A DNA stretch of 26,492 nucleotides, taken from the IMG/VR virus record IMGVR_UViG_3300025697_000125, positions 1 to 26,492 of that record; one strand, written 5' to 3'. Below the pieces are notes generated by a model. The model was not told the origin of the DNA, searched no databases, and saw only the letters and a list, made by a program, of their open reading frames with translations. The position numbers were made by a program, and so were the translations under genes. Source of the stretch: a virus. Of the stretch, positions 6,878 to 14,022 are shown piece by piece; position 1 is the first letter of the stretch; each line of letters begins with the position of its first letter.

Positions 6878-6960
6878 ATCTTTGCAATCGGTTACGGATT
6901 TATGTTGACATTGCGCGATGGGTTGTTAGGGTTGGGACCAGCATTGTTCTTTGACATTTT

Positions 6961-7402
6961 GGGTGGGTGGGAAGCCCAGTGCCGCGCTGACGGAGTCGCC
7001 TAACCACATGGCGGTTACGCGGATATAAAGGCCTGAGGGGAACTAGACGAGTGGTCCTTGCGAGAAATTGCGAGTAGGTCTAGGGATGTGAAGGCAATAG
7101 CCCGTGTTCGGCGACCCACCACCCAGACATTAGCTCTCTCATGCGGCGTGCGACGCCGGGTAAGATTGTTCGCGGAGGAACGCGCATCGTGCAGAAGGGT
7201 GCGACCACGGCCTGAGTTATCCGGTCAAGAGCGTGTTCCATCAAAGAGGCAACGTGGCAGGGAGCCGAGTGGGAATCCGGCCATGAGGGAGCGACATTGA
7301 CTGCCCCGTGCAGCGTGGTGAGACACGCCTAAGCAGTCTACGTGCGAGAGCCCTTCGAGAGTAGACTAGGGGGGAAGCCGGTATCGAATCCGGTCACGGG
7401 GT
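6961..7402 (+). ncRNA. Candidate large structured non-coding RNA with tRNA-like 3' domain
   Basis: The gene-free stretch 6878-7452 holds a dense series of local helices. They are CCGCG/CGCGG (6982-6986 with 7018-7022) enclosing TAACC/GGTTA, CTAGAC/GTCTAG (7043-7048 with 7078-7083) enclosing CTTGC/GCGAG, CGGCGT/ACGCCG (7144-7149 with 7153-7158), CGCATC/GGTGCG (7183-7188 with 7198-7203), and a 9-bp helix with a two-base bulge (7205-7213 with 7247-7257). A tRNA-like domain follows at 7304-7402. The only forward reading frame across it (7058-7300) has no ribosome-binding site and an Arg/Pro/Ser-rich product, as expected from a translated structural RNA. The boundaries are uncertain. I do not recognise a known RNA class; GOLLD- or ROOL-type phage RNAs are possibilities. 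No clear -10 box was found. Confidence 0.5.
7304..7402 (+). ncRNA. tRNA-like cloverleaf without a recognisable anticodon arm
   Basis: CCCCGTG (7304-7310) pairs perfectly with CACGGGG (7395-7401) as a 7-bp acceptor stem. A 2-nt linker leads to a 5-bp arm, GCGTG/CACGC (7313-7317 with 7324-7328). A 7-bp arm follows, AGTCTAC/GTAGACT (7335-7341 with 7361-7367), with a 19-nt loop. Last is a T-arm-like hairpin, GCCGG/CCGGT (7377-7381 with 7390-7394), with loop TATCGAAT, abutting the acceptor strand with no linker exactly as in tRNA. It lacks a 5-bp/7-nt anticodon arm, standard D-loop bases and an encoded CCA (TAG follows). It is tRNA-like rather than a tRNA; a degenerate or mimicking role is inferred. 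Confidence 0.55.
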
Positions 7403-7414
7403 AGTCTTGACATT
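7377..7414 (+). repeat. 38-bp direct repeat, upstream copy (tRNA-like 3' end)
   Basis: A perfect copy of this 38-bp sequence, which begins GCCGGTATCG and ends GTCTTGACATT, occurs at 7989-8026. It covers the T-arm-like hairpin, the 3' acceptor strand and 13 nt beyond, ending in a TTGACA hexamer. The two copies flank one gene (7453-7983). Similarity stops sharply at both ends of each copy. Confidence 0.9.
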
Positions 7415-7452
7415 TTGATTTAGCGAGGATAGCCTTTTTGAGAGGACTAGAA

Positions 7453-7983
7453 ATGTGTAGATTTGCCTCCGCGGTGTTTAACCCGAAAACAATGGAGGTT
7501 CGGGTTGCCGACCTAAGCTCGCACTCAGAAACCTATAAGAAGCTAGGTTTGGCAGACGGGCCAAAACCCAACCAATGGCGAGAGATGCACTACACATCTG
7601 ATGGCGAGGTAGAATGTCGTGTCTTGGACGTGGACAGCCGGACCGCTCCCGAGTGTGTCGAGGCCATTACTGCTCGTTGGCCCTCATTTGTGCAATTTAT
7701 TTCGTGGGCCATTAACAACCCGGAGAGCGTTGGCGGTTATCTCGATCTTGGAGGCCTCACTAGCGCCGAAGGTCTGAAGCTTCCGGAGAGCGTTGGCGGC
7801 TATCTCGATCTTAGCGGCCTCACTAGCGCCGAAGGTCTGAAGCTTCCGGAGAGCGTTGGCGGCTATCTCGATCTTAGCGGCCTCACTAGCGCCGAAGGTC
7901 TGAAGCTTCCGGAGAGCGTTGGCGACTATCTCGATCTTGGAGGCAGGTATTACGCAGTATCGCACGGGAAAATCGTGGAATAA
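7453..7983 (+). CDS. Repeat protein with 21-residue LRR-like/beta-solenoid repeats
   Basis: A 176-residue protein. I choose ATG 7453, with a GAGAGGA site 6 nt upstream, over the in-frame TTG at 7438. The N-terminal ~90 residues (MCRFASAVFNPKTMEVRV...) form a non-repetitive domain ending in a RWPSFVQFISWAIN helix. From residue ~91 come 3.5 nearly identical copies of a 21-residue unit (ESVGGYLDL.GLTSAEGLKLP), then a short cap, YYAVSHGKIVE. Units of this kind resemble leucine-rich or pentapeptide-like solenoids found in phage and bacterial surface or moron proteins. The gene is flanked by 38-bp direct repeats, which suggests it arrived as a unit. Function unknown; protein binding is the likeliest role. 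Confidence 0.7.
   Translation: MCRFASAVFNPKTMEVRVADLSSHSETYKKLGLADGPKPNQWREMHYTSDGEVECRVLDVDSRTAPECVEAITARWPSFVQFISWAINNPESVGGYLDLGGLTSAEGLKLPESVGGYLDLSGLTSAEGLKLPESVGGYLDLSGLTSAEGLKLPESVGDYLDLGGRYYAVSHGKIVE
7722..7944 (+). repeat. 63-bp tandem repeat inside the repeat-protein gene
   Basis: Units begin at 7722, 7785 and 7848, with a partial fourth at 7911. They are almost identical at nucleotide level, including third codon positions; only a few bases differ between the first and later units (GGAGGC versus AGCGGC). The period is a multiple of three, so changes in copy number would keep the frame. High nucleotide identity implies recent duplication. Confidence 0.9.
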
Positions 7984-12113: not shown

Positions 12114-12624
12114 TCACACCAAGTCATTCAGCATATACGGGACGCCCAAGACGGCTGGCAGCAAGAAGGGCTTCATCATGCCAGTCAAGGGCAAGCCGGG
12201 CAAGAACCGCGTCGTAATCACCGATGACTGCAAAGGCGGCAAGGCATGGCGCAAGATCATCGAGAAGTCAACCCTCGATGTGAAATGCACACCCGATGAA
12301 ATGAAATCCGCAGTCGGCATGGTCATGGTGTTCTATCTCAGGCGTCCGAAGTCACACTATCGGTCAGGGCGGTTCAGCCACCTTTTAAGAGACGATGCGC
12401 CATCGGAGCATATTATACGGCCCGACGCATTGAAGCTCGCTAGAGCGGTCGAGGATGCGCTTACCGGCATCACGTGGAGGGACGATGCGCAGATCGTATC
12501 AGAGACAATCGAAAAGCGATTCGGCAAAGCCGAGGGGGTTCATGTAACCGTGTTCTACAGGGCGAATGCCAGCACCGATGGCGATGCCGAGTTTGCGGCA
12601 AACGCACCGGAAAGGGGGCAGTAA
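12106..12624 (+). CDS. rusA: RusA-family Holliday junction resolvase
   Basis: A 172-residue protein; ATG 12106 has AAGGAG upstream at about 8 nt, and upstream in-frame codons lack a site. The RusA core is visible: an N-terminal strand SFSIYGTPKTAGSKKGF, VGMVMVFYLRRPKSHY near residues 70-85, RPDALKLARAVEDALTG (Asp107, Glu116-Asp117) and WRDDAQIV (Asp126-Asp127). These acidic residues bind metal for symmetric cleavage of four-way junctions, which clears replication and recombination intermediates before packaging. The second Asp of the classical PDxDN is Leu here, as far as I recall a common variant in phage relatives. Context (RecT, helicase, replication initiator) supports the call. Confidence 0.85.
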   Translation: MLNHTKSFSIYGTPKTAGSKKGFIMPVKGKPGKNRVVITDDCKGGKAWRKIIEKSTLDVKCTPDEMKSAVGMVMVFYLRRPKSHYRSGRFSHLLRDDAPSEHIIRPDALKLARAVEDALTGITWRDDAQIVSETIEKRFGKAEGVHVTVFYRANASTDGDAEFAANAPERGQ

Positions 12625-12815
12625 TGGCAAGGCAACAAGAGAGTAAGTATTGTGTAGCGTGCAAGAGAAATACCCTGCACCAACGAGATGTCTTTGGCGG
12701 CGGGATGGGCTGCCTGCTGACTGTCGTAACGGGTGGGCTGTTTATCCCCATCTGGATAGTGCTCTACCTGCTGGGAGACCGCAAGAAGTATCGGTGCCAA
12801 GTCTGCGGTTTGTAA
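12624..12815 (+). CDS. Microprotein with membrane helix flanked by two CxxC knuckles
   Basis: A 63-residue protein starting at a TAATG overlap with rusA; AAAGGGGG lies 6 nt upstream. It has a CVAC motif at residues ~10-13, a hydrophobic helix (GCLLTVVTGGLFIPIWIVLYLLG, about residues 28-50) and a terminal CQVC. The two half-knuckles lie on either side of a hydrophobic span, as in LITAF-like membrane-embedded zinc domains in which the span forms a hairpin. The function is not recognised. It is the last gene before a promoter and structured leader. Confidence 0.55.
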   Translation: MARQQESKYCVACKRNTLHQRDVFGGGMGCLLTVVTGGLFIPIWIVLYLLGDRKKYRCQVCGL

Positions 12816-12824
12816 GTTTTCGCT

Positions 12825-12851
12825 TTACATCGGCGGTGGGTGATGTATAAT
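12825..12851 (+). promoter_or_regulatory. Promoter with perfect TATAAT for the replication-initiator gene
   Basis: TTTACA (12825-12830) is followed after 15 nt by TATAAT (12846-12851). The -10 is a perfect consensus; the spacer is short by about two bases. Initiation would fall at about 12858, just before a strongly structured leader at 12861-12967. Confidence 0.55.
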
Positions 12852-12860
12852 ATAGGTAGG

Positions 12861-12967
12861 TCATGCGAGGATGCTATGAGAAACCACACCAAAACCGAGC
12901 CGTTGCAGGGGAGATCACGCCTATTCCGCAAGGGATTAGCATCCTCCATGACCACCTGCAGCGGCTC
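12861..12967 (+). ncRNA. Leader RNA with two interleaved long helices
   Basis: Arm A, 12861-12876 (starts TCATG, ends GAGGATGCTA), pairs with 12937-12951 (TAGCATCCTC then CATGA) over 15 bp with one bulged C at 12866. Arm B, GAGCCGTTGCAGG (12897-12909), pairs with CCTGCAGCGGCTC (12955-12967) over 13 bp with one G-U pair. The order is A-B-A'-B', so the helices either form a pseudoknot or exclude each other. The ribosome-binding GCGGGGGC of the next gene starts 14 nt later. The placement between a promoter and a replication gene suggests a cis-regulatory switch; an origin-like DNA structure is the alternative. Confidence 0.6.
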
Positions 12968-12993
12968 TCTTTCTATTCCAAGCGGGGGCATCT

Positions 12994-13716
12994 ATGGGCC
13001 GTAAGCAATACTGGCTAAAGCTCCTGTATCGAGACTTCCTCAGCGATGAGAAGATCAGGCTATGTTCAGCTGCGGCGCGGGGAATATACATCTCGCTATT
13101 GTGCCAAGCCGCATCGTCCCCGAAGCAAGGCTACCTGCTTTTGACCAAGAAGCGCAAGCCAACTTACGAGGAATTGGCGCACATTATCGGTGTAAACCCA
13201 GATGAATTAGTGAATAACTTGGACGGAACTCTCATTGAACTTGGCCTTATCTCTCGGACGCGGGGGGGGGTTCTCTACTTTAAGAATTGGCGTAAGTATC
13301 AGCGGGGCAGGACGTTAGAGCCAGACTGCGTTGGACCAAAAAGCGGCACTGCGTTGGACCACTTTTCGCCCCTAGAGGAAGACGAAGACGAAGAGGAAGA
13401 GAAAGAGAAGATAGAAACGAATAACGTCGTTACAAACTGCTCGTTTCAAGATGACAAATCTCTCCTCTACGTCGCAGACATTGAAGGGCAAGAAGAACAG
13501 GCGCGGCTGATGTGGGACTGGGTGAATGACTTCATTCCGGATCTTGATGTGACAGCGATGCAACGGTTCAAGGATATTCTGGGGTTCATCACAATTGGCC
13601 CGATGCAAATACTGGAGATCGGCAAGATGCGGAAGAATGCGAAAGTGGCTAAGAATCCGTCCTCATATGTGATGGCGGAATGTGAACGATTACTGGAACA
13701 GCACAGGAGGATATAG
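12994..13716 (+). CDS. Replication initiator/DnaD-like N-terminal domain protein
   Basis: A 240-residue protein from ATG 12994, with GGGGGC 6 nt upstream. Residues 1-115 fit the winged-helix domain of phage replisome organisers: WLKLLYRDFLSDEKIRLCSAAARGIYISLLCQA, then GYLLLTKKRKPTYEELAHIIGVNPDELVNNLDGTLIELGLI, then GVLYFKNWRKYQ (each part continuous in the protein). A very acidic linker follows (EEDEDEEEEKEK, about residues 128-140), then a helical C-terminal domain that may contact a helicase or loader. Such proteins bind the phage origin and recruit the replicative helicase. A run of nine G at 13262-13270 lies inside the winged-helix region. The gene is set apart by its own promoter and leader. 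Confidence 0.65.
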   Translation: MGRKQYWLKLLYRDFLSDEKIRLCSAAARGIYISLLCQAASSPKQGYLLLTKKRKPTYEELAHIIGVNPDELVNNLDGTLIELGLISRTRGGVLYFKNWRKYQRGRTLEPDCVGPKSGTALDHFSPLEEDEDEEEEKEKIETNNVVTNCSFQDDKSLLYVADIEGQEEQARLMWDWVNDFIPDLDVTAMQRFKDILGFITIGPMQILEIGKMRKNAKVAKNPSSYVMAECERLLEQHRRI

Positions 13717-13718
13717 CG

Positions 13719-13760
13719 ATGGACACCCAAACGATTAGCGAGGAGGCTACCGATGTCTGA
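13719..13760 (+). CDS. 13-codon mini-ORF bridging two genes
   Basis: ATG 13719 is 8 nt after a strong AGGAGG (13705-13710) and encodes MDTQTISEEATDV, stopping at TGA 13758-13760, just past the next start (ATG 13753). Its only visible role is to carry ribosomes onto the next gene, whose own AGGAGG lies inside it. It may be a coupling leader or a true microprotein. Confidence 0.35.
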   Translation: MDTQTISEEATDV

Positions 13761-14022
13761 CAGGGTTGAACGAGTGATCCCATTCTCAAACGGTTGCCAG
13801 CACTCCACTTGGGAAGACAGAAACTGTGCGCGTTGTGCCAAGAGCGACCTGAATACCATCGATGGCAAGGGTTGCTGTGACGTGCTCGACGACATTGTGA
13901 ATGCGTTCTGGACTGATGGCACGATGGACGCGGGGATGGCTAAACGCATGGGATACGAAGAGCCTGGACTGAAGTATACGTGGGACTGCCCCGAACGAAA
14001 AGATGTGACCGATGACAAATAA
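13753..14022 (+). CDS. Small Cys-rich phage protein
   Basis: An 89-residue protein with GAGGAGG 6-7 nt before ATG 13753. A CQHSTWEDRNCARCAK segment (about residues 15-30) followed by GKGCCDVLDDI supplies five cysteines and a histidine, which suggests zinc binding. The second half is helical and acidic, with a FWTDGTMDAGMAKRMGY helix. No family is recognised. It overlaps the next gene by 11 nt. Confidence 0.55.
   Translation: MSDRVERVIPFSNGCQHSTWEDRNCARCAKSDLNTIDGKGCCDVLDDIVNAFWTDGTMDAGMAKRMGYEEPGLKYTWDCPERKDVTDDK

Follow-up and report, generated by a model that had tools for sequence, protein, structure and literature searches.

The leader and its locus

The window, which is the whole stretch of DNA analysed here, is a linear phage fragment of 26.5 kb from IMG/VR. 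It contains a leader of about 136 nt, preceded by a 63-aa gene and followed by a DnaD-like replication gene; the parts of this locus are all on the plus strand. The replication gene (12994-13716) encodes a replisome organizer of 240 aa; its product matches Pfam Phage_rep_org_N (PF09681) at 2.7e-8 and the PHROG 'DnaD-like helicase loader' (phrog_186) at 8.3e-11, which agrees with the assignment made in the original prediction from the sequence. The TATAAT promoter proposed there is also present: a consensus scan finds the near-consensus sigma-70-type site TTTACA-16-TATAAT at 12824-12851, with 11 of 12 matching positions, and no other site in the left half of the window scores 11/12. From the position of this promoter, the RNA is predicted to start at about 12858, where helix A begins.

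Helix A is formed by a 5' strand at 12859-12876, with C12866 bulged, and a 3' strand (A') at 12937-12953. Between them lies the 5' strand of helix B (12897-12909), and its partner B' (12955-12967) follows A'. In the minimum-energy folds, both for the first ~80 nt and for the leader with B paired, the 5' end folds instead into a hairpin, P0 (12861-12879), with arms at 12861-12866 and 12873-12879 and one bulge. The 6-nt loop of P0, GAGGAU (12867-12872), is complementary to the core of A', AUCCUC (12941-12946); hairpins analogous to P0 surround A in the Bacteroidetes-type families described below. Directly 3' of B' is a U-rich tract, UCUUUCUAUU (12968-12977), with 5 U in its first 8 positions. 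Judged by its composition, this tract would be at best a weak terminator-like tail, whereas most analogous leaders carry stronger U-runs at the same place. A GGGGG at 12984-12988 is the probable Shine-Dalgarno sequence of the DnaD-like gene and has a pairing option in the nested folds; the ATG of the gene starts 26 nt after the end of B'.

The leader also contains an open reading frame of 42 codons (12876-13004), with a GAGG, inside helix A, 5 nt before its ATG. The frame runs on for about 10 nt beyond the first base of the DnaD start codon, which gives the look of translational coupling. Its codon usage is not gene-like, as it scores -0.03 per codon, compared with 0.22 +/- 0.10 for genes and -0.30 +/- 0.16 for out-of-frame reading.

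Geometry, energy and significance of the interleaved helices

The two inverted repeats are both present in the order A-B-A'-B', as had been claimed. Helix A joins 12859-12865 and 12867-12876 to 12937-12953 in 17 pairs with the single bulge, and helix B has 13 pairs, including one G-U. The length given originally was correct for B; the 15 bp given for A omitted its last two pairs, and for the same reason the spacer between A' and B' had been put at 3 nt, while it is a single nucleotide, A12954. The duplex energies are about -30.6 kcal/mol for A and -30.9 kcal/mol for B. The short spacer had been taken to strain simultaneous pairing. This view is not supported, because A' and B' are on one continuous strand; by geometric reasoning, end-to-end stacking of A/A' on B/B' is feasible, with crossing loops of 20 and 27 nt. 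Moreover, the leaders of three other loci (L035, L091 and L191), which are among the strongest relatives, have a gap of 0-1 nt at this place.

A switch between two folds, the other option proposed, is in keeping with the energies. When the A-only and B-only states were folded separately with nested-only tools, they came to -45.6 and -45.9 kcal/mol, i.e., they are isoenergetic, thus making a switch plausible. In nested folds of the growing chain, P0 appears first, A/A' follows from about 12943, and P0 together with B/B' takes over once B' is complete. In the A-only fold, the 3' end of B' (12964-12969) pairs with 12984-12989 and covers the GGGGG.

The combination of the two helices is what stands out. 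A scan of the whole window for interleaved helix pairs within 120 nt places A and B at the top, with a weaker-helix score of 33.5 against 26.5 for the runner-up. Dinucleotide shuffling of the whole window never reaches this pair in 240 trials (shuffle maximum 32.0), and none of 300 shuffles of the 142-nt leader alone does so (z = 7.6). Each helix by itself is unexceptional, since a better single stem occurs in 14 of the 240 window shuffles. We regard the interleaved structure as very probably real.

Recurrence of the layout before phage replication genes

Relatives of the window leader were sought by sequence. The DnaD protein of the window has no relative in IMG/VR or the GTDB genomes, its RecT has none in IMG/VR, and blastn against phages gives no close relative. 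The exact 17-mer of A' occurs once in IMG/VR, at a place where the rest of the leader is absent. The same type of phage was found through the methylase and terminase side, and those contigs stop short of the leader. In Rfam 15 there is no gathering match in the window nor in 10 loci that carry the element, and the best permissive score, 6.5 bits, compares with a cutoff of 80. Ribozymes of the HDV-like, twister, pistol and hammerhead types do not fit, in view of their layout and of the lack of an Rfam match. As the window leader has no sequence homologue, covariation within its own family is not available, and the architecture was searched for instead of the sequence.

A search with the DnaD-like protein alignment gave 80 loci, which were scanned together with seven further loci; several of the top matches lie directly upstream of a DnaD-like start. 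When 95 loci were scanned for strong arrangements of the A-B-A'-B' type, L035 ranked next after the leader of the window (L001). Its helix A (4064-4080/4149-4165) and helix B (4111-4125/4167-4181) leave 1 nt between A' and B', and downstream of the pseudoknot come a T-run, then an HNH gene and then the DnaD-like gene. The same series, pseudoknot, U-run, HNH gene and DnaD-like gene, is found again in a third unrelated phage (L191). At L091 (6277-6381, the same as L094), a leader with pseudoknot and U-run precedes a ParB-like gene, not a DnaD-like one; this leader has an additional helix nested in A. Thus, the layout proposed for the leader of a DnaD-like gene, a pseudoknot or a switch, recurs in other phages, and the analogous leaders keep both helices. 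In most of them B' ends about 10-26 nt, usually 16-26 nt, before the start codon, and a U-run stands directly 3' of B'; the U-tract is absent or degraded in L131, L158 and L178.

Two comparisons bear on how specific this association is. First, after dereplication, scores of at least 42 are reached by 9 of 50 DnaD leaders and by 2 of 277 regions upstream of other open reading frames. Second, we called a gene leader-headed if it had at least 90 nt of intergenic sequence before it or, 85-160 nt upstream, a promoter of the Bacteroidetes type (TAnnTTTG), the structure itself not being used, and an A-B-A'-B' structure significant if at most 3 of 300 shuffles matched it. Significant structures precede 19 of 28 leader-headed DnaD-like genes (18 without L102) and none of 44 within operons; the Fisher p of 6e-11 is generous, since the sets contain related sequences and L102 is operator-like, and the split is still clean. 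At L102 (3885-3995), CCGTCAAAG-type repeats, direct and inverted, surround the start of the DnaD-like gene, together with a T6 run, and this looks like an operator array with a terminator rather than the same leader element. The element does not extend to every DnaD gene: 80 DnaD loci of the prophage type from GTDB genomes gave only chance-level matches, and it was not found at the DnaD loci of Vibrio, Pseudoalteromonas and Enterobacter phages.

In the Bacteroidetes-type leaders the parts follow one another in a constant order: promoter, P0 with A in its loop, an A-rich linker, B/B' with A' in its loop, TTTTTT, and the start codon. With A in the loop of the 5' hairpin and A' in that of the terminator-like one, A/A' amounts to a kissing-loop pseudoknot. 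MAFFT alignments of the leaders are off by one base or more in the helices, and covariation was therefore counted on hand-segmented helices. In the F1 family, with eight distinct leaders, 99.5% of the cells pair and two-sided changes occur at 19 of 23 pairs, spanning all three helices; since the manual choice of segments favoured pairing, these counts are inflated. The slid and shuffled controls are nonetheless far off, with a covariation score of 0.86 against 0.23 when shuffled and at most 0.12 when slid. The compensatory changes called for by the original prediction are therefore present where a leader family could be aligned, in analogous phages and not in the family of the window itself. 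The L131/L151 and L158/L176 families keep the topology with different sequences. Among the L131, L151 and L158 leaders there is one family in which the last ~12 nt before the ATG repeat A, e.g., ATACGCAACCA; pairing of A' with the start region is thus conceivable as well and may tie the element directly to translation.

The element is also present in cultured phages. In the Flavobacterium phages lillamy9-1 and hemulen6-2, P0 is TAATG/CATTA, A is GTGAGACG/CGTCTCAC, B is AATCCTATTCA/TGAATGGGATT, and a T7 run follows; the element heads an operon of a small gene, a replication protein and a primase. The lillamy9-1 leader is at 14.1-14.2 kb, with the RNA predicted to start just after TATATTTG. In phage elemoD_13-5B (P0 GTTATTA/TAATAAC, A TGAGAGC/GCTCTCA, B AATCCTAAC/GTTGGGATT, T6), it precedes a small gene, a replication protein and a primase-helicase, and in Cellulophaga phage phi18:3 a small gene and a DnaD-like gene. 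A template scan ranks the leader first genome-wide in lillamy9-1 and first in the first 50 kb of phi18:3; there are no annotated RNA features at these two leaders. In shuffle tests of the short leaders, the structure was reached in 0 of 300 shuffles for elemoD, 5 of 300 for lillamy9-1 and 15 of 300 for phi18:3, so the latter two are individually modest.

The window leader has in common with the Bacteroidetes-type element its position, the promoter at its 5' end, the A-B-A'-B' topology and the distance from B' to the start codon. It lacks the blocks GAAGTA before A' and CTACGGA after A'; moreover, its A is much longer than in those families, its A'-B' gap is 1 nt and its U-tract is weaker. Its geometry is closest to that of L035, L091 and L191. 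By analogy, the window leader would function like the Bacteroidetes-type families, with or without common descent.

A candidate RNA switch and its alternatives

We propose that the leader is a cis-acting pseudoknot or kissing-loop regulator of the replication operon, a reading we think probable on balance. P0 at the 5' end would present A in its loop, and the B/B' hairpin just upstream of the start codon would present A' in its own; A would then pair with A' as a kissing loop or pseudoknot, which in the window version can zip to 17 pairs. During transcription, P0 would form first, then A/A' holding B in its loop; then B' would emerge, and B/B' could form beside the U-rich tract. Whichever of the A-paired and B-paired states prevails would set read-through or translation into the DnaD-like gene, and in the window B/B' may also keep B' off the Shine-Dalgarno sequence. 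As to the mode of control, attenuation seems the likeliest single option, given the U-run that stands after B' in the majority of leaders, with odds slightly below even; that the window leader acts in RNA, and that it attenuates, is an inference.

The same U-run directly 3' of B' in most leaders would also suit a leader whose main product is a terminated small RNA of ~110 nt, acting in trans or as a primer near an origin, with the gene expressed by read-through. The promoter at the exact 5' end fits this alternative as well, and so does the finding that in cultured phages the element heads the operon for replication. However, the U-tract is weak in the window, the usual distance of 10-26 nt from B' to the start codon is that of a typical cis leader, and the window has no origin signature. 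We consider the small RNA unlikely.

Equally unlikely, in our judgement, is a translation switch without attenuation, in which the A-only fold would let the 3' end of B' mask the Shine-Dalgarno sequence, and B/B' or the full pseudoknot would free it. The pairing of 12964-12969 with 12984-12989 in the A-only fold and the weak U-tract of the window are what such a switch would predict. On the other hand, this pairing relies on G-U pairs, and no sequestration of the Shine-Dalgarno sequence is seen in L035 or L191; masking is thus rejected as the common mechanism. Bacteroidetes phages are not known to rely on Shine-Dalgarno pairing, which also counts against a translation switch.

Overlapping inverted repeats could also act in DNA, as an origin or a protein operator. 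The element does sit before the gene of a replisome organizer, covariation alone does not separate DNA from RNA, and L102 has operator-like direct and inverted repeats. However, the arms of A and B occur elsewhere in the window no more often than by chance, so that an operator array is rejected, and the arms are 60 nt (A) and 45 nt (B) apart. The phage origin that had been suggested as the alternative lacks support, as there is no iteron array near the gene and no reversal of GC skew in the window. The constant spacing to promoter and start codon suits an RNA, and a DNA-level element is in our view improbable. Finally, that the window repeats are accidental or a relic unrelated to the other leaders, as the lack of a homologue and of sequence common with other families might suggest, is very improbable in view of the shuffle results, and because the repeats line up with the promoter start and the start of the gene and share an architecture that recurs elsewhere.

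The proposed cis-acting regulator may be compared with known leaders of replication genes; in plasmids, RNA switches placed in initiator-gene leaders control replication. In the rep leaders of IncI-alpha, IncB and IncL/M plasmids (ColIb-P9 repZ; Asano & Mizobuchi 1998, cited in PMC10724649), a pseudoknot with a hairpin loop sets initiator expression. The likeness to ColIb-P9/IncB repZ is that a 5' hairpin loop pairs with a start-proximal sequence upstream of a replication gene, in the window GAGGAU with AUCCUC, as judged by base complementarity. The ColIb-P9 type needs a translated leader peptide and an antisense RNA, whereas the 42-codon frame of the window scores as non-coding and a consensus scan, which is weak evidence, finds no promoter-like site on the minus strand at 12500-13800; in addition, A' lies here inside a second, often terminator-like hairpin. 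In the pT181/pIP501 attenuators, a terminator-like hairpin and a poly-T tract stand immediately upstream of the rep start (PMC5703833). These share with our element a complementary leader segment upstream of the terminator-like hairpin; at the place of their tract before the rep start, the window has the weak UCUUUCUAUU and most analogous leaders have clear U-runs. The pre-emptor of pT181 targets the terminator's 5' arm, whereas here A pairs with the loop of B/B', whose stem arms pair with each other.

The gene 32 leader of T4/RB69 has a pseudoknot of ~28 nt at its 5' end and UUAAA repeats bound by gp32 (PMC535899). Like our element, this pseudoknot stands before a replication gene of a phage; its sequence varies among phages, and some lack it. 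Our element differs in its ~110 nt, its long helices and the DnaD-like loader gene. Pseudoknotted and kissing-loop riboswitches resemble it as leader pseudoknots coupled to terminators, but here there is no conserved ligand core, all helices covary freely and no Rfam family applies. Within the open text of PubMed Central, the plasmid rep-leader switches and the gene 32 pseudoknot are the nearest systems. The element appears to work like the plasmid switches, yet it meets the definition of none of them, and the same literature gave no comparable RNA control of DnaD-type phage replication organizers.

Present in unrelated sequence before the replication genes of many phages, the layout looks like an uncatalogued RNA switch that times DNA copying. 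Tentatively, it could represent a widespread uncatalogued class of regulatory phage RNA: leaders of replication operons, in many unrelated phages, with a kissing interaction between the loops of two hairpins, one at the 5' end and one terminator-like. If so, only the topology would be conserved and the sequences would be free, possibly giving each phage a private specificity, as with the copy-number RNAs of plasmids; databases of RNA families overlook elements that keep their topology but not their sequence. The timing and dosing of phage replication proteins would become directly testable, as the element is present in cultured Flavobacterium and Cellulophaga phages.

Two other places in the window may be mentioned. 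At 6878-7450, some 560 nt have no convincing open reading frame and are flanked by two copies of TTGACATTTTG (6952 and 7407); this stretch has no Rfam or phage DNA match and a fold z-score of only -0.9, and it is possibly a non-coding RNA or a decayed gene. At 7438-7983, a gene encodes near-identical tandem repeats, LPESVGGYLDLSGLTSAEGLK.
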